This document shows, piece after piece, positions 626-17,236 of a stretch of DNA of 23,253 nt. Location: the IMG/VR virus record IMGVR_UViG_3300005910_000035, positions 1 through 23,253 of that record. One strand, given 5' to 3'. Numbering within the stretch: position 1 is the stretch's first letter; the number at the start of each line of letters is the position of its first letter. A program made the position numbers and the translations under genes. The DNA comes from a virus. A model generated the notes under the pieces. It was not told the origin of the DNA, made no database searches, and worked only from the letters and a program-made list of their open reading frames with translations.

Positions 626-3118
626 ATGGCACTAAATATTGAACTTCACCCCAAGCAAATAATTGCACTTACCTCCCCTGCGAATGAAATATTGTATGGT
701 GGGGCTGTAGGTGGGGGAAAAGCATTAGACATACACACACCAATACTCACTGATACTTGTTGGAAAACAATGGAAACTTTAGAAGTAGGGGATAAAGTAT
801 TTGGGGGAAATGGTAATTTATGCAATGTACTAGCAAAAAGTGCTATAAATACAAAATCCAAAACTTATGAGGTAGAATTTAATCGTGGTACTACGTTAGT
901 ATGCGATGGCAGGCATGGGTGGCTTGTTGAAAGACGGTTAGGAAGGCGTAATGCTTTATTGACCACAGAGCAGTTACTTAGAGAAGGGTTGTTTACAGAT
1001 ACTCATAGAAGTAAGTTTATAGTTAAGGGAGCACCTTTTTTAAATTTTCCAACAAAAGATTTTCCAGTTGACCCCTACTTAGTAGGGATGTTTTGTAATG
1101 GTGGGTTTTTAAAAAAACGTAAAAAGGATCTCATGGTACAACAAGCAAGTGCTATGGGAAGTACTTGGCAATTAGCTGATTATTGTGGTGGGAAATATAC
1201 CAACCCAAAGGACTTCTATGAGCACATAGCTTTAGTAGGTTTGTCCGAAGATAACAAAGTAATTCCCGATATGTATAAGTATGGGGATAGAGAACAAAGG
1301 CTTTCTGTTCTTCAAGGGATTATAGATATATCAGGTAGCCCTGAATTAAAACAAAGTAGAATAGGTATCCACTGTAGAACACAGAAGTTTGCCGAAGATA
1401 TAGTTGAACTAGTTCGTTCTTTAGGGATACGTAGTGCTATTACAAGTTCACATAATGAGTTTGAGTTCAATAACTACAAAGGGGAGTATGAAGTACGGGT
1501 AAGATTTGAGGGCACAAAAGAATTTTCTAGAATAAAATTAGAGCAAGACAAACTACCTGAGAAGAAGCGTACAGAAAAAAATAGTAGATACTATATTAAG
1601 GCTATACGCAGAATACCAGCGAGAGCAAAGCAGTGTATTCAGGTAGATAGCCCTAATCATACATACTTAGCAGGTAAGGAATTAGTTCCCACACACAATA
1701 GTTTTCTTATGCGTGTGGCTGCAATTACATGGGCTATGGAAGCTCCAGGAGCACAAATATATTTGTTTCGTTTAACTCGTAAAGAATTGGAAGATAATCA
1801 TATGACAGGTAAAGGGTCATTCCATGAACTACTGGGTGATGCTGTGGATGATAAATTTGTAAAGATAAATAACTCTGACTATCAGATTCAGTTTAAGAAT
1901 GGGCCTCGTGGGGGCTATATGGGAGGAAGTATTATTCACCTCTGTCACTGTTTGTATGAGAAAGATAAGTACAAGTATCAAGGGGCTGAGATGGATGCTT
2001 TGATGATAGATGAGGCCACACACTTTACGTGGAGTAAATATACATATCTCCGTACTCGTGTTCGTACACCTAAAACATGGCAACCACCTTTGGCTTTTAG
2101 ACAAAAATGGGGGGAGAATTTCTTTCCCCGTATACTTTTAGGCACTAACCCAGGAGGTATATCTCATTCAAAAATAAGAAAAGAGTTTGTAAAAGTAGCT
2201 CCCCCACTTACTATTGTAAAGATGCCTAAGACTATGGGGGGTATGTTGCGACAATTTATTCCTGCTACATTAGACGATAATCCTTCTATTGACAAAGAAG
2301 AGTATGAAGGCAGAGTTATGGGTGTTGGAAATGCTGCTACAGCTAAAATGCTATTAGAAGGAGATTGGGATGCTATAGCAGGGGGGATGTTTGATGATGT
2401 GTGGGACGAAAAAGTACACATGATTGAGCCTTTTGAAATACCTTCTTCTTGGTATGTTGATAGAGCACTCGATTGGGGTTCTTCTGCTCCGTTCTCTATT
2501 GGTTGGTACGCAGAAAGTGATGGTACAGAAGTTACCCTGAAAGATGGTAGTAAATACACATATCCTGCTGGTATTTTATTTAGAATAGCAGAATGGTATG
2601 GTTGGAATGGTGAAGAGAATGAAGGGTGTGGCCTCACTGGATATGAAGTAGGACACGGAGTTAAGCAGATGGAAGAGAGCAACCCTGTATTTAAAAATAT
2701 CCACAAAGTATATCCTGGGCCAGCCGATACACAGTTATGGAATAAGAATCCAAAATATGATTCTTCATATATGTCTATTGCACAAGAAGTTAACGCTGGC
2801 TACTATGGAAAAGAGTCATACAAACTGTTTGATGTGTTTACAAAAGCATCAAAGGGAGCTGGTTCTAATGTAATAGGATGGGAGATGGTGAGGACTCACT
2901 TGAAAAATTCTTTGAATTATCCTAATATGGACAGGAAGTGTATCTTTTTTTTCAATACGAATGTGCATGTAGCTAGAACTTTGCCTATAATTATGAGAGA
3001 TGAGAATAGGATTGAAGAAATAGCTAAAGAACAAGAGGATCACGTTGTCGATGAAATCAAATATAGAGTAGTGCATAAAGTGCATCGCTCTCGAAAAATA
3101 CGAACAGTATTATCATAA
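626..3118 (+). CDS. terL: Terminase large subunit (TerL) precursor with in-frame intein
   Basis: This is the packaging ATPase and nuclease that translocates and cuts concatemeric DNA at the portal. The 830-residue precursor consists of an N-extein (residues 1-32), an intein (33-358) and a C-extein (359-830). Splicing would give a 504-residue protein, the usual TerL size. The Walker A loop GGAVGGGK ends at Lys32 and is completed by Ser359 after splicing, so the ATPase cannot be active without it. Walker B is ALMIDEA (458-464, Asp462-Glu463), and the GTNPGG coupling motif lies at 506-511. The RNase H-like nuclease acids are probably Asp616 (LDWGSS), Asp701 (PADTQLW) and the C-terminal pair Asp805/Asp809 (DHVVDEIKY). 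The ATG has an AAGGA site. The TAA stop overlaps the ribosome site of the portal gene. Identity is near certain; the exact TerL subfamily is not assigned. Confidence 0.96.
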   Translation: MALNIELHPKQIIALTSPANEILYGGAVGGGKALDIHTPILTDTCWKTMETLEVGDKVFGGNGNLCNVLAKSAINTKSKTYEVEFNRGTTLVCDGRHGWLVERRLGRRNALLTTEQLLREGLFTDTHRSKFIVKGAPFLNFPTKDFPVDPYLVGMFCNGGFLKKRKKDLMVQQASAMGSTWQLADYCGGKYTNPKDFYEHIALVGLSEDNKVIPDMYKYGDREQRLSVLQGIIDISGSPELKQSRIGIHCRTQKFAEDIVELVRSLGIRSAITSSHNEFEFNNYKGEYEVRVRFEGTKEFSRIKLEQDKLPEKKRTEKNSRYYIKAIRRIPARAKQCIQVDSPNHTYLAGKELVPTHNSFLMRVAAITWAMEAPGAQIYLFRLTRKELEDNHMTGKGSFHELLGDAVDDKFVKINNSDYQIQFKNGPRGGYMGGSIIHLCHCLYEKDKYKYQGAEMDALMIDEATHFTWSKYTYLRTRVRTPKTWQPPLAFRQKWGENFFPRILLGTNPGGISHSKIRKEFVKVAPPLTIVKMPKTMGGMLRQFIPATLDDNPSIDKEEYEGRVMGVGNAATAKMLLEGDWDAIAGGMFDDVWDEKVHMIEPFEIPSSWYVDRALDWGSSAPFSIGWYAESDGTEVTLKDGSKYTYPAGILFRIAEWYGWNGEENEGCGLTGYEVGHGVKQMEESNPVFKNIHKVYPGPADTQLWNKNPKYDSSYMSIAQEVNAGYYGKESYKLFDVFTKASKGAGSNVIGWEMVRTHLKNSLNYPNMDRKCIFFFNTNVHVARTLPIIMRDENRIEEIAKEQEDHVVDEIKYRVVHKVHRSRKIRTVLS
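722..1699 (+). mobile_element. Class 3-type intein in the TerL Walker A motif, with degenerate LAGLIDADG endonuclease domain
   Basis: This 326-residue intein is inserted between Lys and Ser of the P-loop GGGK|S. It starts with Ala (ALDIHTPILT), not Cys or Ser, and ends PTHN before Ser+1. Block N2 is GDKVFGGNG. Block B is DGRHGW, with His97 and Trp99 of the precursor. Block F is KQCIQV with Cys337 at the F:4 position. Block G has Thr356-His357-Asn358. Trp, Cys and Thr at these positions form the WCT signature of class 3 inteins, in which the block F cysteine makes the first nucleophilic attack. Between blocks B and F lie two LAGLIDADG-like motifs, LVGMFCNGG (152-160) and LQGIIDISG (229-237). 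The acidic residue normally at position 8 is Gly159 in the first and Ser236 in the second. Splicing looks intact; DNA cleavage looks lost. Confidence 0.93.
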
Positions 3119-3128
3119 GGAGCGTGTT

Positions 3129-4745
3129 TTGGCTATAACAAACTATATAAAAGAGATGAAGGGAAAAAAATATATAAATGGCATAGAGTACACTCACCCT
3201 GAATACGATAAGTATTCTCCTTTATGGAGTAAAGCCCGTGATATATTAATGGGGGAAACCGAATTAAAAACCCTTGCTAAAAGAGAAAAGTATTTAGCTA
3301 GACTTGGTGGGCACGCATATGACGAGGAAGGCAACAGAGACTATAAACAGTTTGTAGAGTATGCAATGTTGTTTAATGCTACAGGACGGACTGTTGAAGC
3401 CTATAGAGGGCTCTTGAACAGAAAATCACCCATAGTAGATTTGCCAAAAGAGATAGAAGATTTAAAAAGTAATTTTACTATTAAAGGGGAATCTATAAAT
3501 ACGTTTTTAGAGCAAGTTGAAACCGAAGTAATTACCACTAATAGAGTTGGTATTTTTATTGACTATCCATATAGAGACAGTGGTAGCCCATTTACTAAAG
3601 CAGACGAGAAGAAATATAATTTTTCTCCTTATGCAACAATGTACCCTGCGGAGAGTATTATAAATTGGGAAGAAACTAGAGTAAACAATAAGATAGTAAC
3701 TAGTCTTGTAATATTGCGGGAAATTGATTATGTGCGTATTGATTCTTTTACACCAGTAGCAAAAACTACTTATAGAGTATTAGAGTTAGACGAGTATGGG
3801 TACTATAGACAAATAATAGTTGAACCAGTTGCTATAACCGAAGGAATGAATAGAGGGTCGGCTAATGAAATTAAAAAGATTGTGTATCCCCGAAAGAATG
3901 GAGAAAAGCTAACACAAATTCCTTTTATACCTGTTACAGCCCAAGGAGTTACGTGGACGTTAAGTAAATCTATTATAGAGGATTTAGTAAATGTCAACTT
4001 AGCTCACTATAGAGATACAGCATTTTATGAAAAAGCTATCGCATGGACAGCATCACCCACAGCTGTATTTAGTGGCTTGCCCGATGAAGCACAAGAAATT
4101 GCTATTGGTAGTTCTAGGGGAATAATTATAGCTCCAGGGGGTACGGCAAAATATTTGGAATATGAAGGTAGAGGCCTCGATGCTATAAAAGAAGCATTAG
4201 ATTCTAAAGAGAATTTAATGGCAGTGCTGGGTACTAAGATATTAGCGACAACTGCTGGTAAAGCAGAATCAGGTGAAGCAGCATTAATTCATAGGGCTGG
4301 GGAACAAGGGATATTATCTGATGTAGCCACTACTATTGAAGGAGTTGCAGAAACAGCAATAAAAATAATTGCAGATTGGAGGGGAGCTAAAACCAACAGT
4401 ATTACTGTACACATTAATAAAGACTTTTCACCAATTATCATGGATGCTAATACACTTATTGCTATGGGTAAAGAATTGCAAGCTGGTAATATTAGTCATG
4501 AAACATATTATTGGGCAATGCAACGAGGGGAATTAGCCTCCGCAACTAGATCGTTAGAAGAGGAACTAGCTTTGATTAAGAAAGGAAGAAAGATGGTTGT
4601 TTCTAAAAGTTCACCAATATATGTTAATAAGAAAGATGCAAAGATTATAGAGGAAGCAGACGAAGATATAAAAAAGAAAGCAGAAGTAGACGCTGTAGTG
4701 CCAAATCCACTACAAATTGATGCTACTAAACAAATAGAAGAATAG
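3129..4745 (+). CDS. Portal protein, DUF4055 family
   Basis: The 538-residue protein forms the dodecameric ring at the head vertex through which DNA enters and to which the tail attaches. The N-terminal third has the DUF4055 pattern: a Pro-Glu-Tyr segment, Trp followed by an Arg-Asp-x-x-x-Gly-Glu stretch, Tyr-Leu-x-x-Leu, and then FNATGRTVEAYRGLL near residue 90. A portal stem-like helical part and a charged C-terminus rich in Glu and Lys follow. The start is a TTG, chosen because AAGGAG lies six bases upstream, right at the terL stop. The first internal ATG (position 3156) has no comparable site. It lies between TerL and scaffold, the standard portal position. The family call is from memory of sequence patterns. 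Confidence 0.9.
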   Translation: MAITNYIKEMKGKKYINGIEYTHPEYDKYSPLWSKARDILMGETELKTLAKREKYLARLGGHAYDEEGNRDYKQFVEYAMLFNATGRTVEAYRGLLNRKSPIVDLPKEIEDLKSNFTIKGESINTFLEQVETEVITTNRVGIFIDYPYRDSGSPFTKADEKKYNFSPYATMYPAESIINWEETRVNNKIVTSLVILREIDYVRIDSFTPVAKTTYRVLELDEYGYYRQIIVEPVAITEGMNRGSANEIKKIVYPRKNGEKLTQIPFIPVTAQGVTWTLSKSIIEDLVNVNLAHYRDTAFYEKAIAWTASPTAVFSGLPDEAQEIAIGSSRGIIIAPGGTAKYLEYEGRGLDAIKEALDSKENLMAVLGTKILATTAGKAESGEAALIHRAGEQGILSDVATTIEGVAETAIKIIADWRGAKTNSITVHINKDFSPIIMDANTLIAMGKELQAGNISHETYYWAMQRGELASATRSLEEELALIKKGRKMVVSKSSPIYVNKKDAKIIEEADEDIKKKAEVDAVVPNPLQIDATKQIEE

Positions 4746-4746
4746 C

Positions 4747-4780
4747 TATATTGACACATTATGGTAAAAGTGTTAATATA
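4747..4780 (+). promoter_or_regulatory. Putative promoter overlapping an 11-bp inverted repeat before scaffold/capsid genes
   Basis: A perfect -35 hexamer TTGACA (4751-4756) is followed, after 17 bases, by TAATAT (4774-4779), a four-of-six match to the -10 consensus. Transcription would start near 4786, leaving about 25 bases of leader with a strong TTGGAGGT ribosome site before the scaffold ATG at 4812. The same bases form an inverted repeat, TATATTGACAC (4747-4757) with GTGTTAATATA (4770-4780), that has one G-T wobble and a 12-base loop. The repeat could be an operator for a dyad-binding regulator, an mRNA hairpin at the end of the portal transcript, or chance. Spacing and gene context favour a promoter, but no experiment supports it. 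Confidence 0.45.
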
Positions 4781-4811
4781 AGCAAGAAATAAAACCTTGG
4801 AGGTTTAAATT

Positions 4812-5687
4812 ATGAAGTATGATTTAAGTGATGTAAAAAGTGTGCAAAAGTTTTTACTACAAATGAAGGGATTTGCAGACAGCATTAACGGTGCATTACC
4901 AGAAGATTCTAAAGTAACATTTGATTATGATGAATTTACAGAGAATTTTTATAAAGCAAACGAAGGTATCTTACAGAATAGAGATACAATCAAACAGGAG
5001 AAATTGAAAGCAGTAGAAGATTTTGCTACCTACAAAACTTCAATGGAAGAAAAGTGGGGGAAAGTTGACCAGAACATTGTAACAAAATATAATGCTGCTG
5101 TTGAGGAACTTACTTCTTTGAAAGAAGTTATTAAGGAAAACGATGGTGGTTTTGATATTGATAAACTTAAATCTAGACATGCTTCTGAGATAGCAGAGAA
5201 AGAGAAAGAGTTTGAAGCAAAGTTTTTAGAGGACAAAAAACCTTTAGAAGCAGAATTAGAGAAGTTAGTTACGGCTGTTGGAACTTACAAAGGTAAGTAT
5301 TTTAGTAAACTTAAAAAAGAAGCTGTAGAAAACGAACTCGCCAGAATTAATGTGAATCCAGAAGATAAGTCATTAATCCTGCAAGCTAATTTAGGCAGAG
5401 CCGAAATTGCAGAAACGGATGGGGATAACTTTACAGTTGTTTTCAAGGAAGAGGGGAAAGATTCTATTCCTTTAAGTAAGTATTGGGATGCGTGGGCTAG
5501 TGATGCAAAACACCAAAAATACATTTTATCTGCGGATAATAGTGGTGGTGGTAGTGCTGGGGCTAACTCGAATGCTGGGCCAAGTGTAAAAGATAAATTG
5601 ATTGCACAATTGGATGATCCTAAAATTACATTAAAAGATAGACTAATCCTGTCAGAAAAATTAGCAAAAATGCATGCTGAAAAATAA
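4812..5687 (+). CDS. Scaffold-like capsid assembly protein
   Basis: The 291-residue protein probably acts as the internal scaffold that directs capsid shell assembly and is then removed. It is rich in Glu, Lys and Ala, with long predicted coiled-coil stretches at about residues 55-180. A Gly/Ser/Asn-rich linker near residue 245 precedes a short helical, basic C-terminus ending KLAKMHAEK. A small helical C-terminal domain that binds the coat protein is a common arrangement in phage scaffolds. No protease motif is visible. The gene sits between portal and major capsid, where scaffolds are normally found. Its strong TTGGAGGT site and the promoter match upstream suggest high expression. The function is inferred from composition and position, not from a recognised family. 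Confidence 0.8.
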   Translation: MKYDLSDVKSVQKFLLQMKGFADSINGALPEDSKVTFDYDEFTENFYKANEGILQNRDTIKQEKLKAVEDFATYKTSMEEKWGKVDQNIVTKYNAAVEELTSLKEVIKENDGGFDIDKLKSRHASEIAEKEKEFEAKFLEDKKPLEAELEKLVTAVGTYKGKYFSKLKKEAVENELARINVNPEDKSLILQANLGRAEIAETDGDNFTVVFKEEGKDSIPLSKYWDAWASDAKHQKYILSADNSGGGSAGANSNAGPSVKDKLIAQLDDPKITLKDRLILSEKLAKMHAEK

Positions 5688-5717
5688 AAACAGCTTGATT
5701 TTTAATGGAGGACATTT

Positions 5718-6746
5718 ATGTCACAAATTACAGGAATTACAAATTATTGGAATAGCCCACATTATGAAGGGCAATTATGGACAGCAAACGCAGTACAAGG
5801 TAAAGGAACAGGGACACCTTTCCTCACACTCATGGGTGGGCTTAATGCTGCTAACATGAGAATTGTACACGATTTTGATTTTGTCATGACAAATGAATAC
5901 GATTTCCCTGCGGCTGCACAGCCAGACATTGACGAGACAGATTCTTATACTGCTCCCGGGGCTACTTCTCCTGTGTATGACCAACAGAGAAATGCTGTAG
6001 GTATCTATCAAGAAGCAGTGAATATTTCCTATAAGAAACTTTCAACTGATGCTCGTTTAGCTACTGGTATTGTTCATGGTGGGGTTGGTTATATTGCACC
6101 AGAGGGTGGAGCAGTTCAAGGTTTAATCGCTGAACGCAAAGCATACATCTTACAAAAAATTGCGAGAGACTATAACTATGCTTGTATCAATGGGGTATAC
6201 CAAATGTCTACTGGTACTGATGTCTCATCTCTTTCCCGTGGGGTTTCTACTGCGGCTACAACCAATGCTATTGCTGCCGCAAGTGCAGAATTAAGTGAAG
6301 CACTTTTACAAGAGCTTTTCCGAACAATGGCAGAAGGTACTAACAACATGGCTTTCCAAAACACACCACTTTTATTTGTTCCTGCAACACAGAAACAAAA
6401 TATAAGTAAGATTTTTGGTAATCAACCTACTGCTTGGGATATTGGTGGAGTTAAGATTGATGTTATTTTAACTGACTTTGGGCCTGTTGGTGTTGTGTAC
6501 GAACCAATGGTAAATGTCACTGGTGCTGGTACGGATACTATTCTCTTTGCTTCTATGGATGCAATCAGACCTGTATTCAACTCTGTTGTTACCGACCTTG
6601 GTAATCAGGGCTTATTGCTTTATGAAGATTTAGCAAAAAGTGGTGCAGCTATGAAAGGACAATTCCTTGGGCATATGGGCGTGGACTATTCACACCAAAA
6701 AATGCACGGTAAAATTTCAGGGCTTCGTAGAAGCACATTAGTGTAA
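5718..6746 (+). CDS. Major capsid protein, HK97-type fold likely
   Basis: The 342-residue protein is the probable building block of the icosahedral head. The N-terminal part has TPFLTLMGGLNAANM followed by a His/Asp/Phe-rich strand, then Ala-Pro-Gly-Ala-Thr-Ser-Pro-x-x-x-x-x-Gln-Arg-Asn and a long spine-helix-like segment, GLIAERKAYILQKIARDYNY (around 135-155). This order resembles DUF5309/SU10-like coat proteins, which adopt the HK97 fold. There is no obvious long N-terminal delta domain, consistent with a separately encoded scaffold. It has a GGAGG site seven bases before the ATG and follows the scaffold by 30 bases. Identity as the coat protein is well supported by size and position; the exact family is a judgement from memory. 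Confidence 0.88.
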   Translation: MSQITGITNYWNSPHYEGQLWTANAVQGKGTGTPFLTLMGGLNAANMRIVHDFDFVMTNEYDFPAAAQPDIDETDSYTAPGATSPVYDQQRNAVGIYQEAVNISYKKLSTDARLATGIVHGGVGYIAPEGGAVQGLIAERKAYILQKIARDYNYACINGVYQMSTGTDVSSLSRGVSTAATTNAIAAASAELSEALLQELFRTMAEGTNNMAFQNTPLLFVPATQKQNISKIFGNQPTAWDIGGVKIDVILTDFGPVGVVYEPMVNVTGAGTDTILFASMDAIRPVFNSVVTDLGNQGLLLYEDLAKSGAAMKGQFLGHMGVDYSHQKMHGKISGLRRSTLV

Positions 6747-10183: not shown

Positions 10184-10595
10184 TGAAGCAATTAGTGATG
10201 TTATTTCTATTATGGAAACTCAATTAGCCACAATAACATCTATTTCTACTGACCATATAAATTTTATTAACACTTCCTATGTTCCATCGGGAGAAACTTT
10301 TCTTCAAGTAATGATATTTGCGGCAGAGCCATCCCAAGCAAGTTTAGGGACAATAGGTCAGTTTAGGTTTGATGGTGTGTTTGAGATAGACGTATACACA
10401 CAAATGAATACAGGCAGAGGTGGGGTAAATCCTATCCTGAAAGAGATTAAAGAGTTGTTTCTTCCTGGGACTACATTGACAAATGGTGAAATATCAGTAC
10501 AATGTAAGACAGTGTGGGAATCAACGCAGGATTTTCAAGATAATTGGTACATAGTGCCGATTAACGTTAGATGGTATGCTTATACAAGCAGATAA
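10173..10595 (+). CDS. Tail terminator-like protein (DUF4128-like)
   Basis: The product is 140 residues from the chosen start. It begins with a helix (SEAISDVISIMETQL), followed by strands FLQVMIFAAEPSQAS, a FDGVFEIDVYT strand, a G-x-G-x-x-x-P-I-L loop and a final IVPINVRWYAY strand. This alpha-beta order is that of tail terminators, which cap the growing tube and fix its end. I prefer ATG 10173 to ATG 10161 because GGGGT lies just upstream of 10173 and nothing resembling a ribosome site precedes 10161. The gene overlaps the previous one by 11 bases. Gene order (before the tube protein) agrees. Confidence 0.72.
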   Translation: MAYSEAISDVISIMETQLATITSISTDHINFINTSYVPSGETFLQVMIFAAEPSQASLGTIGQFRFDGVFEIDVYTQMNTGRGGVNPILKEIKELFLPGTTLTNGEISVQCKTVWESTQDFQDNWYIVPINVRWYAYTSR

Positions 10596-10609
10596 TTTGG
10601 AGGTTATAT

Positions 10610-11782
10610 ATGGCATTTAGTTCAGGTGCACAAAGAGATTTATATTATGTTGAGGAAACTGCATATGGTGTTGGGCCAGAAGTTCTTGACATGACAGAGG
10701 TTCGTAATACTGAGGACTCATTGAATTTATCTAGGGACAGTTTTGTTTCTAATGAACGTAGGGGTGATAGAGGTATTCATGACATGAGACTTGGGAATAA
10801 ACAGCCAGCAGGTGATATTTCCTACGAATTTAGCTATGGAGCTTTTGATGATTTTTTGAAAGCGGCTTTAGGTGCTTCTGCATGGGTTGCTCCTTATGTT
10901 GATTTATCTGTGGCAGTAACAGTGGTTGCATTAGATAAAACATTTACAAGAGCCACAGGAAGTTGGGTAACTGACGGAGTTAAAGTGGGGGATATAATCA
11001 CCATTACAGGGCTTACAACCACAGCAGACAATATTACAGCAGAAGTTACAGCTGTTGCCGCTTTAGTGATTACTTTTGCTAATGCAACTGGTTTAGCTGA
11101 TGCTTCGGTAGCAGAGGCAGGTGTATTTAATACTACTACTGCAAAAATTATAAAAGGCAGTACAGTTACTTCTTTCCAAGTTGAGAAAGTATTTACTGAC
11201 ACTGATGTTCCCGAATACCAATTATATACAGGTGGGCTGATAAATTCATTTGCATTAGATGTTTCACCTAATGCAATGATTACAGGTTCATTCGGTATGT
11301 TATTTAAAGATGCTGAGAATGGAACTGTTAAATATCATAATGATGTTGCTGGCGTTGTTGCTAATCCTCCTTTTGATGCTTTTACAGGCTACATTAAGGA
11401 AGGTGGGACAGCTACTGCTGAGACAGCTAGTTTGTCAATTTCATTAGACAATGGATTTGAAAGAAACTTTGTATTAATGGCAAACACTTGTCCACAAATG
11501 ACTAGTGGGAAATCTAATGCAACAGGAAGTGTAACACTCTATTTTGCAAACAGTACAATGTATGATAAGTTTGTAAATGAAACAGAATCAGCTATCGAAT
11601 TGAAATTAACTGATCAGTTAGGTAATGCTTATGTTATTAGCTTACCTAGAATTAAATATTCATCTGCTGACACACCAGTATCTAGCGATGCTGCAATTAT
11701 CAACACAATGAATTACCAAGCACTAGACGACCAGACAGAATTGACAAACATTAGTATCACACGTTATCCTGTTATGGCTTAA
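10610..11782 (+). CDS. Major tail (tube) protein
   Basis: The 390-residue protein polymerises into the tail tube. The N-terminus fits the Phage_tube_2-like pattern: a Glu-Glu-x-x-Tyr-Gly-x-x-Pro segment, a Ser-Leu-x-x-Ser-x-x-x-x-x-Ser-Asn-Glu-Arg stretch around residue 45, and PAGDISYEFSYGAFDDFLKA near 70-88. Residues about 98-174 form an inserted beta module (KTFTRATGSWVTDGVKVGD onward), after which the tube fold resumes with strands ending in a conserved-looking NISITRYPV. The start is ATG 10610, with TTGGAGGT seven bases upstream. An upstream in-frame GTG at 10571 lies within the previous gene and has no ribosome site. The stop codon sits in the loop of a stem-loop. Confidence 0.88.
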   Translation: MAFSSGAQRDLYYVEETAYGVGPEVLDMTEVRNTEDSLNLSRDSFVSNERRGDRGIHDMRLGNKQPAGDISYEFSYGAFDDFLKAALGASAWVAPYVDLSVAVTVVALDKTFTRATGSWVTDGVKVGDIITITGLTTTADNITAEVTAVAALVITFANATGLADASVAEAGVFNTTTAKIIKGSTVTSFQVEKVFTDTDVPEYQLYTGGLINSFALDVSPNAMITGSFGMLFKDAENGTVKYHNDVAGVVANPPFDAFTGYIKEGGTATAETASLSISLDNGFERNFVLMANTCPQMTSGKSNATGSVTLYFANSTMYDKFVNETESAIELKLTDQLGNAYVISLPRIKYSSADTPVSSDAAIINTMNYQALDDQTELTNISITRYPVMA

Positions 11783-11813: not shown

Positions 11814-12206
11814 ATGGTAAACTTAGGGAAGTATTCAGTAAAAGAATTATCGGAAACAGGGGTTGAATTTTATTTAACTGATATTAGAACAGGGCTCGAA
11901 ATCGAAGAACCAAAATTTGTGGTTTATGGGATGGATTCTGAAATAGTTACCCTTGCCCGTAGAAAATATTCGGAACTTGTGGCTGTAAAACATATGAAAG
12001 AGTGGAAAAAAGATGAGTATCTGCTTGACTTTATTACTGCTTGTGTTAAGTCTTGGGATGAGTTTCAATATAATGAGGATTTGGTTAAAAACCAAGACAA
12101 AGTAGCCTTGCGTAAGTTTTTTGTGGAGAGTCCACAATTTAAAGACCAAATTAGTGAGTTTGTAACGGAACGTGCAAATTTTTTAGCGGTATCAGACAGT
12201 CTTTAA
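11814..12206 (+). CDS. Tail assembly chaperone (gpG-like, zero-frame product)
   Basis: This 130-residue protein lies between tube and tape measure, the near-universal place of the G/GT chaperones that coat the tape measure and recruit tube subunits. It has a beta-like N-terminus (residues 1-45) and helical segments around 50-125, with many Lys and Glu. It has no membrane segment. AGGAG precedes the ATG. It ends at TAA (12204-12206), 19 bases past a slippery heptamer. Most ribosomes should stop here and give the short form. The family was not recognised by motif alone; the frameshift and position carry the call. Confidence 0.82.
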   Translation: MVNLGKYSVKELSETGVEFYLTDIRTGLEIEEPKFVVYGMDSEIVTLARRKYSELVAVKHMKEWKKDEYLLDFITACVKSWDEFQYNEDLVKNQDKVALRKFFVESPQFKDQISEFVTERANFLAVSDSL

Positions 12207-12535
12207 AAGAAGCTGTCTTTGCTAAGGTTGACTTAAGCTATCCTCGAAAAGATGGTAGCACTTTGGCTGACCACCTAATACAGCACGAGAAAACATCGGG
12301 TGAAAGGGATAGTATGTTTGATCGTGCTATCCCTCCTGTGTATTGTGTCAATATATGGAGACAGTATTGGCTTATACGTACGGAGGGTATTTTTAGAGTC
12401 AGTGAAGCATATGCATATACACAAATGACAGGAGTAGAAATAGGGAGATTTGAGTTACACGAAATGTTCATAATTGATTCGTATGTAGGCGAACGAATGG
12501 AATATCATAGACGTTCCAATAGTGGGGGAAAATAG
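11814..12535 (+). CDS. Tail assembly chaperone GT-like fusion made by -1 ribosomal frameshift
   Basis: A -1 shift on TTTTTTA (12179-12185) joins the first 124 residues of the short chaperone to 116 residues read in the -1 frame (codons from 12185 to 12532, stop TAG at 12533-12535), for a 240-residue fusion. The -1 frame has a TGA at 12155-12157, 22 bases before the slip site, and is open from there to its stop. It has no credible start of its own: the best internal start is a TTG at 12263 with no ribosome site. The T part is helical, with aromatic-rich segments (VNIWRQYWLIRTEG) and AYAYTQMTGVEIGRFE. In lambda and relatives the T part binds tube protein while G binds the tape measure. The stop abuts the tape measure ATG. 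Confidence 0.85.
12179..12218 (+). promoter_or_regulatory. Programmed -1 frameshift signal: slippery TTTTTTA plus stem-loop
   Basis: The zero-frame codons are GCA AAT TTT TTA, so the heptamer T-TTT-TTA (12179-12185) fits X-XXY-YYZ, the same heptamer as in HIV-1 gag-pol. An overlapping A-AAT-TTT is also slippery. Eight bases downstream, AGACAGTCTT (12194-12203) pairs with AAGA (12207-12210) and CTGTCT (12213-12218), giving ten pairs with a two-base bulge. The three-base loop is the zero-frame TAA stop (12204-12206). Spacing and stem are typical of stimulatory hairpins. Confidence 0.85.
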
Positions 12536-15500
12536 ATGGATGAGAAAAGCACAGTTATATTAGAGATAAGTGCCAAAGGGTTTGCAAGTGCCACCAATGC
12601 CCTCACTAAAATAAATACTTCAATGGACAAGTTAGACAAAGCTATAACTAAATTAGCTAAAAATAGTGGTATGGCAGCTGTTGATAAATTAACAAATAAA
12701 CTAGCAAAACAACAGGCAGTTATTGAGGGGCTTAGAGCTACTCAAAAACGAAGTACTCAATCTCAAATACTTGAGAATAAAAAATTAGAAAAATCATTAC
12801 AGGCTATAACTAAAGAGAATAATAAATTAACTAGAAGTCAATCTTCTACTAACGAAAAGATGATTAAGAAAATATCTACAGAAACTGCCAATAGAAAAGT
12901 AGCCGAGAATAAACTAAAAGATGCCATTAAAGAAAGCAATAAAGTTCAAAAAGAACAACTTAAAACTATGAAGGCAGAAAATAAAGTAGTTAAGGAATCT
13001 CTAAAAGGAATCGAAGGTAGATTACGTTCATTAGAAAGACTTAACAAAACTCAGTTGCAATATGAAGCTACAATCAAAAAACTTAAACAAGAGCTTTCAG
13101 AGCTAAAGGGTGAAGAGGTACAATTTGTATCTAACACCGACAGACTCAACGCAGCAATTAAACAAGCGAACTCTACTATAATAAAACACAAAGGGCTTAT
13201 AGCCCATGTAACCTCTGCCAATAAAGCTAGCAAGGCTGTAATGCGTGATAGCACTGTAATAGTTAAATCACAGCAAGAAGCTATTGATAGGCTTAATGTA
13301 GCAATTAAGAAAACAACTGATGTATCAGAGAAAAATATACTTGTTACTAAACGGAAAGCAATGGAGGAAGAAAAGTTAGCAATGCAAACTTCTGCTTCTC
13401 TTGTTATTCAGAAAATGCAGAGAGACTCTATGATGCGATTAAAAACAACTATGAATACGTTAACGGGGGGTATGCGTACTGCTGGTAGAGTATTAACTAG
13501 AACGTTGACTCCTGCTATGATGGCGGCTGTTGCGGCTGGTGTGAAAATGGCTGCTGGAATTGAAAGCCAAATAGTTAGGTTTAGTATTCTTACTGGTAGT
13601 ATGGAAAAGGGAGCTAAATTATATAAACAAATTGTCGAGTTTAGTGCTGTAACTCCTTTCCAATTACCTGATTTAGATAAAACTGTGCAGATTCTTTTGG
13701 CTTTCGGTAGCCCATTAGAGGCTGTAATGAATGAATTAAGAATGTTGGGTGATATTGCAATGGGTGATTCTGAGAAATTAGAAAGGATTGCCTCTAGTTT
13801 TGGTAAAGTACGTTCTAGGGGTACAGCCCACATGAGAGAGTTAAATAGATTTATCATGGCTGGTGTACCTATATTTCAAGAATTGCGGAAGAACATTGGT
13901 GGTACTGGTGAGGATTTGTTTGAGATGGTTAGACAAAATAAAATATCTTTTGAACAAGTTAATCAGGCTGTTGTAACATTAACTGCTTCTGGTGGTAGAT
14001 TCCATGATATGACACTGAGAACTTCTAGGACATTAGAAGGTAGATTTAGTACTGCATTAGACAACTTGAAACTTAATTTAGCTTCTGTATTTGAAGTATT
14101 TACTGATGATTTAAAATCTATGTTAGAAGGATTTATTGATTGGTCACAAGGATTTAGATTACTTTCTGAGGGAACACGAGAATCCATAGCTAAATTAGTT
14201 GTTGGGTTGGCCGCTGTAGGGCCTGCTTTAACAATATTAGCTGGGGGAATTAAAGTAGTTACTTCTGCTTACATTGCTTTGAAATTAGCACAGACTGCAT
14301 TTAATCCTGTACTAGCTATTTTTATAGCTGTAGCTGCTGCTGCAACAGCTATTTATGTTGCATATAAAAAGTTGAAAGGACAATTAGATGAAGCAGGGGA
14401 TAAAGCTAAGAAATTAGCTGAGTACACTGAAAGAATGAATGATGCACAAGACTATAGTCAAACTAATATGCCCTTAATGAACAAGGGATTGTTTGAAACA
14501 GCAAAAGCCTATGGTTTACAAGCAGAAGCGATTGGGAGAGTTTTACAAGCAGAAGAATTATTAGCTGAATTGAGGGCTGGTTTTAAGGCTTCTGATGCCT
14601 TTTCTGTGGCTTCAAAGCAATATAGGTCTATGATAGATGACGGTAGAACAAATACTTTCTCTAGGATAAATGACACTATAAAACCAATTTTAAAGGGCAT
14701 AGGATTTGGCAAATCTTCTGAGGCAGATTATGATGCATTAAATAAGGCTTTCAAGGAACTAGCTGATATTAACGAAGTGTACAAAAAAAGAGTTATTGAA
14801 TTAATTGGAGGCGACCTAAAAGGCGATTCAAAAGAAATAGGCGCACTAATAGAAGCTGGATTTGATAAAAATTTTTCTGTATTATTTAGTGGGGGGCTTA
14901 AAGTTCCTAACAAAGAAGAATTTATGGCACAAAGTGAAGAAAATTGGAGAAATTTATTGTTGGAAACTGCTAGCAAATTGACTAGTGAGCGTGAATTACG
15001 AATTGACAGCGGGCTAAGTGTTGCCTCACCTTTGGAAACTTTTTTAGAAGGAGTTAATTCTGCCTCAATGAGTTCAATGGGCGATAATGAACTTGCTACT
15101 ACTAGTACTATAATCAACAAGCTTCAAGAAAATAGAAATAAAGTAAAGATGTTATACAGTAATTTCAAGGAAGATATTGAACAGGAGAGAGAGGAAGTAG
15201 AGGATAAACTTATTAAAAATGAGATAAACTTTAATACTTTTGAAGGTTCACAGGCATCTCTTGATAAAAAGGCCTCTACCGCATTGGAGGTTTATGAAAC
15301 TAGTTTAGATAATTTTGATACAGATTTAATTGGTTTAATGCAGAATAGAGTATTTGAAATAAAAGACGAAACTGGATATGAAGGGGCTATTTTGCAACTA
15401 CTTGGTATCTCCGATGACAAAGATGTAATAAAAACATTAGAGGCTCAATTAGATTTAATTAGCACAGAAATGGCTGGTTTGGACTACTCATTTGCAGATA

Positions 15501-17236
15501 TAGAAGATATGTTGCTTACAGGGAAAATACCTGATGTTGTGCAAGTATTGGTAGATGCTTCTACTGAAATAGGCGAGAGGTTAGCTGTGCAGTTAGCACA
15601 TAAAGATAGAATCTCTTTATTTACTACTTTTTTTGAGGGTGATTTAGCTACCACTGAAATAGATAAGTTGGAAAGACAAATAAAAGTTGCTATTAGTGAT
15701 TTAGCCATCAAATTAGCGGAAAGCGCAGACCTCGGCACACTAGTAACGGGCGATGAGTCTTTGATAGATGTTATTTTTGGTCATATGAAAGCTGGAACAT
15801 TAGAAGGGTTCATAGGCGAAGCAGATAAAGCTACACAAGATGCTTATGCTTTGGTAGTAAGTTTCTCTGACAAAATTAAAAAGTTAACAGAGGATGCTGG
15901 GGACAATAAAAGTCTTATAGAAGCTCTGCTAGGGGACAAGGATAGTTTAACCACTTATTTTGACTCCATAAAGATAGGAAATATGAAAAAGGACTTTGAA
16001 AAGACTTTTAATGCCTTCATTGAAAAAACAAAGTTTAACCCAGACAGTACAGCGCATCAGTTGCAGTACTTAGCGGAAGTGGAAGCAAAGACGGGAGACA
16101 TTACCAGCGCATTAGATGGAATGAGCAAAGGAAGCGCAAAGGCTTGGATAGAGTTTTATGTTGGATACAAACAACTTAAAGAATTTATCGATAACTCCCT
16201 TGGTGTACCCGAAGATCAAACTTCACTTATAGAAGCCTTGATTGGCAGTCCTAAGTCTTTCGATGAGTATATTGAAAATTTAGAGATAGAGGGCATGTAT
16301 AGTAAGATACAAGAGAAAATGCGTAAACTTACCGAAAATAGTGGTACTTCTATGATTGACTTTGCGGGCATGTTTGATATGGACGCTTTAGGAGAGATAG
16401 ATGATTTTATAGATTTAGATACTATTTTTGATGCTTTTGCTGCTTTACCAGAGAGTATCAAGAAATCTAAGCCTGAGTTAATAAAGCTAATTGAACTTAT
16501 GCGTATATTAAAAGGGTTACTCCCTGAAATAGAGGATGAAGAAGTAAAGCTTAAGGATACTTTGATGGGCCTGGCAGAAAGTTTTCAGAAGGTATTAGAA
16601 GGTTCTATTCTCCCTGCTTTTGAACAATTAGGTACTAGCATAGGCGAAGGTGCTTCTGGTATCGATGCGTGGGGCAGTGCTTTGCAAACAGTAAGTGATG
16701 CTATAATGAAAGCCATGCCACAACTAATGTTGCAAGCTGGATTATCCCTGCTGAGTAGCGAGGATTCCACAACCAAGTGGATTGGTGTAGGACTCATTGC
16801 TGGTTCTGGTTTGGTTTCATTCTTAGGGGGGCTTACTAGTGCCGAAAGTAAAGTAGAATCTTCTACTACTCCATCAGAGATTTCTTATTCTGCTAGTGGG
16901 GATACTTTTAACAAAGGGTATCTAGCTGATTCAGCTATGATGAGAAGTTCAGGATACGGTGTAAGCGTGATAGGGGAAGCTGGCACAGAAGCTGTAATGC
17001 CATTAACTAGAGGAAGTTCAGGTAAATTAGGAATAGCTGGTGGTGGGGGAGGAAATGTATATGTAAATGTAGTAAATAACACTTCTGCCAAAGTAACAAA
17101 AGAAGTAAAAGAAAACTCAGATGGCACTAAGACACTAAATTTCTTGATACATGAAACAGTCAAGCAAGGGATGGCTTCGGGTGAATATGATAGACCAATG
17201 CAGAAAGTATATGGTAGCACAAGAAGGGGAAGATAG
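12536..17236 (+). CDS. Tail tape measure protein
   Basis: The 1566-residue protein sets tail length and is ejected with the DNA. Residues about 20-300 are coiled coil rich in Lys, Asn and Glu. Residues about 330-520 match the tape-measure N-terminal domain (AAGIESQIVRFSILTGSMEK, TPFQLPDLDKTVQILLAFG, AHMRELNRFIMAGVPIF). Residues about 548-612 are hydrophobic, with two or three possible membrane segments ending AVAAAATAIYVAYKK. Residues 1075-1270 hold imperfect repeats starting SLI-x-x-[IL]-[FL]-G at 1075, 1126 and 1230. The C-terminus has VIGEAGTEAVMPLTRG and a Gly-rich stretch (about 1477-1505), usual in this family, and ends in basic residues. The ATG follows the chaperone stop directly, with GGGGGAA as ribosome site. 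By the usual rule of about 0.15 nm per residue, the tail would be near 235 nm. Confidence 0.95.
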   Translation: MDEKSTVILEISAKGFASATNALTKINTSMDKLDKAITKLAKNSGMAAVDKLTNKLAKQQAVIEGLRATQKRSTQSQILENKKLEKSLQAITKENNKLTRSQSSTNEKMIKKISTETANRKVAENKLKDAIKESNKVQKEQLKTMKAENKVVKESLKGIEGRLRSLERLNKTQLQYEATIKKLKQELSELKGEEVQFVSNTDRLNAAIKQANSTIIKHKGLIAHVTSANKASKAVMRDSTVIVKSQQEAIDRLNVAIKKTTDVSEKNILVTKRKAMEEEKLAMQTSASLVIQKMQRDSMMRLKTTMNTLTGGMRTAGRVLTRTLTPAMMAAVAAGVKMAAGIESQIVRFSILTGSMEKGAKLYKQIVEFSAVTPFQLPDLDKTVQILLAFGSPLEAVMNELRMLGDIAMGDSEKLERIASSFGKVRSRGTAHMRELNRFIMAGVPIFQELRKNIGGTGEDLFEMVRQNKISFEQVNQAVVTLTASGGRFHDMTLRTSRTLEGRFSTALDNLKLNLASVFEVFTDDLKSMLEGFIDWSQGFRLLSEGTRESIAKLVVGLAAVGPALTILAGGIKVVTSAYIALKLAQTAFNPVLAIFIAVAAAATAIYVAYKKLKGQLDEAGDKAKKLAEYTERMNDAQDYSQTNMPLMNKGLFETAKAYGLQAEAIGRVLQAEELLAELRAGFKASDAFSVASKQYRSMIDDGRTNTFSRINDTIKPILKGIGFGKSSEADYDALNKAFKELADINEVYKKRVIELIGGDLKGDSKEIGALIEAGFDKNFSVLFSGGLKVPNKEEFMAQSEENWRNLLLETASKLTSERELRIDSGLSVASPLETFLEGVNSASMSSMGDNELATTSTIINKLQENRNKVKMLYSNFKEDIEQEREEVEDKLIKNEINFNTFEGSQASLDKKASTALEVYETSLDNFDTDLIGLMQNRVFEIKDETGYEGAILQLLGISDDKDVIKTLEAQLDLISTEMAGLDYSFADIEDMLLTGKIPDVVQVLVDASTEIGERLAVQLAHKDRISLFTTFFEGDLATTEIDKLERQIKVAISDLAIKLAESADLGTLVTGDESLIDVIFGHMKAGTLEGFIGEADKATQDAYALVVSFSDKIKKLTEDAGDNKSLIEALLGDKDSLTTYFDSIKIGNMKKDFEKTFNAFIEKTKFNPDSTAHQLQYLAEVEAKTGDITSALDGMSKGSAKAWIEFYVGYKQLKEFIDNSLGVPEDQTSLIEALIGSPKSFDEYIENLEIEGMYSKIQEKMRKLTENSGTSMIDFAGMFDMDALGEIDDFIDLDTIFDAFAALPESIKKSKPELIKLIELMRILKGLLPEIEDEEVKLKDTLMGLAESFQKVLEGSILPAFEQLGTSIGEGASGIDAWGSALQTVSDAIMKAMPQLMLQAGLSLLSSEDSTTKWIGVGLIAGSGLVSFLGGLTSAESKVESSTTPSEISYSASGDTFNKGYLADSAMMRSSGYGVSVIGEAGTEAVMPLTRGSSGKLGIAGGGGGNVYVNVVNNTSAKVTKEVKENSDGTKTLNFLIHETVKQGMASGEYDRPMQKVYGSTRRGR

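Follow-up and report, generated by a model that had tools for sequence, protein, structure and literature searches.

A predicted -1 ribosomal frameshift in the tail assembly chaperone gene of an uncultivated phage clade

Introduction

A small ORF of a metagenomic virus, with the tail tube gene on one side and the tape measure gene on the other, is followed, in the -1 frame, by a second open stretch that runs up to the tape measure gene, and its own stop codon falls at the tip of a predicted hairpin. This raises two questions: are the two frames joined by programmed ribosomal frameshifting, as in the tail assembly chaperones of other tailed phages, and does the location of the stop codon contribute to the choice between them?

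Results

Genomic context

The window (i.e. the whole 23,253-base virus record analyzed here) contains a siphovirus-like structural block with the gene order terminase, portal-like ORF, major capsid protein, neck genes, tail tube, small ORF, tape measure and distal tail genes. The small ORF, which is preceded by an RBS-like AGGAG, and its two neighbors are:

10571..11782, + strand: tail tube protein gene, upstream neighbor (Pfam Phage_tube_2, E 1.2e-38; PHROG 290, E 2.5e-69)
11814..12206, + strand: gpG-like tail assembly chaperone of 130 aa, read in the 0 frame and flanked by the tube and tape measure genes; PHROG 313 matches in relatives
12536..17236, + strand: tail length tape measure protein gene, downstream neighbor (Pfam TMP_3, E 1.5e-16; PHROG 9959, E 2.1e-41)

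Placement between the genes for tail tube and tape measure is that expected of a chaperone gene of the gpG/gpGT type. A search for tRNA genes in the window found none. The ORF for the terminase large subunit (626-3118) is split within the Walker A motif (GGAVGGGK / HNSF) by an insert that resembles an intein carrying a LAGLIDADG homing endonuclease, with weak matches to Pfam Hom_end and LAGLIDADG_3.

The slippery heptamer and the -1 frame

The elements of the proposed frameshift are:

12179..12185, + strand: slippery heptamer T_TTT_TTA, in phase; identical in five of five lineages
12185..12535, + strand: -1 frame T-like domain, proposed to be fused to the first part by frameshifting; 45-49% identity to four other lineages; Phage_TAC_18 in relatives
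12194..12218, + strand: predicted stimulatory hairpin with 10 pairs, a 1-nt bulge and an AAAA loop, -9.2 kcal/mol
12204..12206, + strand: 0-frame stop TAA at the hairpin tip, a position specific to the window lineage

A preliminary description of this DNA had placed TTTTTTA in the correct phase, and had the -1 frame opening after a TGA at 12155 and reaching the tape measure start. Both claims are borne out: the heptamer is read as T_TTT_TTA in the frame of the 130-codon ORF, and the -1 frame is open from 12158, right after the TGA (12155-12157), until a TAG (12533-12535) directly abutted by the tape measure ATG (12536). The main genes of the window contain 46 in-frame heptamers of the form XXXYYYZ, four of them TTTTTTA. 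At the 44 located elsewhere the -1 frame extends for only 2-16 codons, as against 118-119 codons at the two overlapping heptamers of the chaperone site (118 for T_TTT_TTA). As none of the other 44 opens more than 16 codons, the conjunction of heptamer and long -1 frame is not a chance occurrence. The second in-phase heptamer at the site, A_AAT_TTT (12176-12182), is absent from the other lineages in both the alignment and the heptamer scan; slippage on it would yield Asn-Phe-Phe-Ser instead of Asn-Phe-Leu-Ser.

Conservation in related lineages

Protein and DNA-pattern scans of IMG/VR, with contigs carrying the same sequence as the window set aside, recovered four other lineages: L003/L004, the L015 group, the L019 group and L078. 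L015 and L019 are 84-88% identical, and the count of independent lineages is therefore nearer four than five. Between the window and these four the 0-frame protein is 45-54% identical and the -1 part, from the heptamer onward, 45-49%, with TTTTTTA at the same codon throughout. Searches elsewhere returned no relatives: tblastn with the chaperone parts (P0001, P0002) found none in phages, none of the -1 part was found among plasmids, and none of either part in the genome contigs collection.

The point at which the frame changes is well delimited. In L003, L015, L019 and L078 a stop closes the -1 frame no more than one codon upstream of the heptamer, which in these lineages leaves the heptamer itself as the only place for a switch. 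Differences per codon position are biased towards the third position in the 0 frame upstream of the heptamer (0.34/0.28/0.59) and in the -1 frame downstream of it (0.33/0.28/0.49); thus, the protein constraint changes frame at the heptamer. The segment immediately following it is conserved across the lineages (xxRQxL...YPxKDG).

These observations bear on two other readings of the split frame. The -1 ORF might be a separate gene with its own start, translated by reinitiation or from an internal ribosome site without any fusion; annotators of related phages do list a short separate ORF here, and the window has a TTG (12263) and an ATG (12314) in the -1 frame. However, conservation of the -1 segment starts at the heptamer, ahead of any start codon: ATG, GTG and TTG are absent from at least the first 17 codons of the -1 frame in every lineage, and in L015, L019 and L078 from the first 52, the first possible start being codon 61, 61 and 53 after the heptamer, respectively. 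Independent initiation of the conserved segment is thereby strongly disfavored, and we regard a separate gene as barely credible. As for an assembly error or a broken gene, homopolymer runs are error-prone, but several metagenomes yielded five lineages with the same split, and protein constraint acts on both halves; its conservation in relatives refutes this reading in practice, leaving it a negligible probability.

Relationship to known chaperone families

The window's 0-frame protein has no family match at E 0.001, and its -1 part matches Pfam Phage_TAC_18 at E 0.095, below the cut-off. Among the four lineages, the 0-frame proteins of L078 and L015 match PHROG 313 ('Tail assembly chaperone'; E 3.7e-8 and 6.7e-6, respectively), and their -1 parts match Phage_TAC_18 just under the cut-off (for L078, E 7.8e-6 and 26.4 bits, the cut-off being 27 bits). 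A more distant set comprises annotated phages whose tail tube is related: Bosavirus QDWS359 (L023), Pamexvirus PaMx74 (L024), Pseudomonas phage PSASB_03 (L025), Xanthomonas phage YB23 (L029) and the Queuovirinae phage pVco-14 of Vibrio (L026). Their gene order is tube, chaperone, short ORF and tape measure, and at the corresponding place they have TTTTTTC with a -1 extension of 112-115 codons. Their -1 parts match Phage_TAC_18 above the cut-off (5.8e-23 to 6.3e-18), and comparison of the -1 domain with these -1 frames by hhalign gives a probability of 96.5 (E 7e-10). PHROG 15027 ('tail assembly chaperone', 259 positions) matches their 0-frame protein with its N-terminal half and their -1 protein with its C-terminal half. 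By these profile and sequence matches, the closest relatives appear to bridge the gap from the window proteins, which have no significant direct match, to the chaperone families. The frameshift architecture is conserved in the five lineages and the five distant phages.

The downstream hairpin

The preliminary description had also noted a ten-pair hairpin eight bases downstream of the heptamer, and the fold predicted at 12194-12218 agrees with this: it starts 8 nt past the heptamer and has a z-score of -3.7, a single one of 200 shuffles being as good. Recodings of the -1 peptide that followed the codon usage of the window (5000 trials, folding the 48 nt after the heptamer) reached an equally stable fold in 1.8% of cases for the window, 2.3% for L003, 7.8% for L015 and 3.1% for L019. 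A hairpin on the same CAG/CUG core is found in all five lineages, with the pairs C19-G37, A20-U36 and G21-C35 (numbered from the first heptamer base) invariant; part of this invariance is due to conservation of the Arg-Gln codons. Around the core, pair 22-34 varies between C-G, U-A and U-G across the five lineages, pair 23-33 is C-G in L003 and A-U in L078, and pair 17-39 occurs as both G-C and G-U. Such changes hint at selection on the hairpin structure, the covariation itself being modest (two pairs with double changes, a level reached by 127 of 500 shuffles) and, with five sequences, not above shuffling. In most lineages RNAalifold additionally pairs part of the slippery run and the bases after it (UUUUAGC, 12181-12187) with a GCUAAAA-like sequence about 36 nt downstream (12221-12227), a pairing that would be melted by a translating ribosome.

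The hairpin is also relevant to a third reading, in which the U6 run causes transcriptional rather than ribosomal slippage, with an extra U in some mRNAs. The six-T run does lie at the switch point, and one inserted base would give the same frame. Yet a run of six bases is short for polymerase slippage, it is kept as exactly T6A in the phase needed for tandem tRNA slippage, and the hairpin follows at about the spacing of ribosomal sites. We therefore accord transcriptional slippage a very slim chance.

The stop codon at the hairpin tip

The favored fold closes an AAAA tetraloop with a G.U pair that includes the U of the UAA, and contains a 1-nt bulge (-9.2 kcal/mol). The 0-frame TAA had earlier been described as forming exactly the three-base loop; this needs a 2-nt bulge and, at -6.6 kcal/mol, is 2.6 kcal/mol less stable, and is thus not the favored structure.

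From this location it had been proposed that the stop ties the frameshift level to hairpin unfolding, i.e. that it is a functional coupling device: hairpin opening would control, or be influenced by, the termination of unshifted ribosomes, and the frameshift rate would be set in this way. The stop does sit at the predicted hairpin tip, but among the five lineages it does so (at +18) only in the window. The other four stop at +6, 12 nt earlier and before the stem, and the distant phages at +3, +54 or +93. The difference is traceable to column 15, where the window has C against A or G in the others, making its 0-frame codon TCA rather than TAA or TGA. Read in the -1 frame, this column falls in an Ile codon in the window (ATC) and in L003 and L078 (ATA), and in a Leu codon in L015/L019 (CTG/CTA). 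Thus, one base, silent in the -1 frame relative to L003 and L078, moved the stop from +6 to +18, where a conserved Leu codon of the -1 frame (TTA in the window) and the A after it supply the next 0-frame stop. The position of the stop is accordingly a drifting feature and not a conserved part of the cassette; that it falls in the hairpin loop is accidental, peculiar to the window's one lineage, rather than a conserved device.

Mechanistic considerations point in the same direction. The frame would be chosen before either stop is reached, and both shifted and unshifted ribosomes would have to melt the stem, so that the stop position by itself would not discriminate between them. The melting noted earlier for unshifted ribosomes would thus apply to shifted ones as well. 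Along with the lower stability of the exact UAA triloop, this makes a coupling device very unlikely, and the claim goes unsupported by the four lineages that stop before the stem. A literature search, which covered few subscription journals, found no paper linking a hairpin-loop stop to phage chaperone frameshifting. A more speculative variant, to which we attach very little weight, is that once the stop had moved into the tip in the window lineage, ribosomes pausing there to terminate would keep the stem melted and make the following ribosome less likely to shift; if true, this would amount to a translation-density feedback on the ratio of short to long chaperone.

Proposed mechanism

The locus is best explained by programmed -1 ribosomal frameshifting of the standard kind in a phage tail assembly chaperone gene, a reading to which we assign a probability of about 0.94; conservation and the family matches strongly support the preliminary description in this, its central claim. 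From what can be read in the sequences, namely the heptamer phase, the protein constraint on both frames, the switch point, the hairpin in relatives, the gene order and the relatives' families, we infer the slippage itself, its rate, the junction peptide and the assembly roles, as follows. Most ribosomes would read 11814-12206 to produce the 130-aa gpG-like protein. The choice of frame would be made while UUU occupies the P site and UUA the A site, with the hairpin at the mRNA channel entry: a minority of ribosomes, whose Phe-tRNA and Leu-tRNA are paired with UUU and UUA, respectively, would slip back one base on U_UUU_UUA on meeting the hairpin 8 nt downstream. These would continue in the -1 frame to 12535, generating a fusion of about 240 aa that includes the T-like domain, with the predicted junction Asn-Phe-Leu-Ser-Gly. 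By analogy with lambda, the short form might coat the tape measure protein, and recruitment of the tail tube subunit might fall to the long form, which is rare.

In E. coli, UUUUUUA does not rank with the most efficient motifs, UUY codons shifting better than UUA (PMC4066793), and a review ranks U_UUU_UUA as less shift-prone than A_AAA_AAG (PMC5009743). The frameshift rate may therefore be low, with the proviso that E. coli figures may not fit the window's host or its tRNAs. A low rate would suit a gpG:gpGT-type ratio, which is about 30:1 in lambda (PMC5009743).

Comparison with known systems

The locus is thus well supported as a chaperone frameshift of the ordinary kind, belonging to a clade of uncultivated phages. 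Its slippery site, UUUUUUA, which ranks below the best motifs in E. coli, has been kept across about 45% protein identity, and the 0-frame stop has been free to drift while the heptamer and the hairpin core were kept.

The five distant phages resemble the window in gene order, in a homologous T-like domain and in a U6 heptamer at the same place followed by a predicted structure, whereas they differ in using TTTTTTC, in the location of the 0-frame stop and, in some, in longer 0-frame tails. The heptamer scan detected no long -1 extension in L027 (Guernseyvirinae-like), L028 (PaMx28) or L030 (Vibrio PH669). The result for L027 fits a report for the Guernseyvirinae, in which phage Shashou is described as having no canonical slippery sequence (PMC6776780). 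In L027, Escherichia phage AnnaReinhart_Bas75, four minus-strand genes (4175-6056), one annotated as a DNA repair exonuclease, lie between the tail tube and chaperone genes.

The window shares its heptamer with HIV-1 gag-pol, as the preliminary description had pointed out, but the genes and host ribosomes are unrelated; the common heptamer is a generic slippery site. A contrast with GGGAAAG-type phage sites was also drawn there; the sister site TTTTTTC, however, serves distant phages that share the gene order, and U-rich sites are therefore normal for this chaperone gene.

Lambda itself slips on GGGAAAG, whereas the window has UUUUUUA with a clear downstream hairpin. The two are alike in the position between tube and tape measure and in the presence of a slippery heptamer (PMC5009743), the likeness being one of arrangement. 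The window chaperone is thus an instance of the lambda gpG/gpGT arrangement, also used by many other tailed phages, and extends the lambda-type chaperone frameshift to an uncultivated clade.
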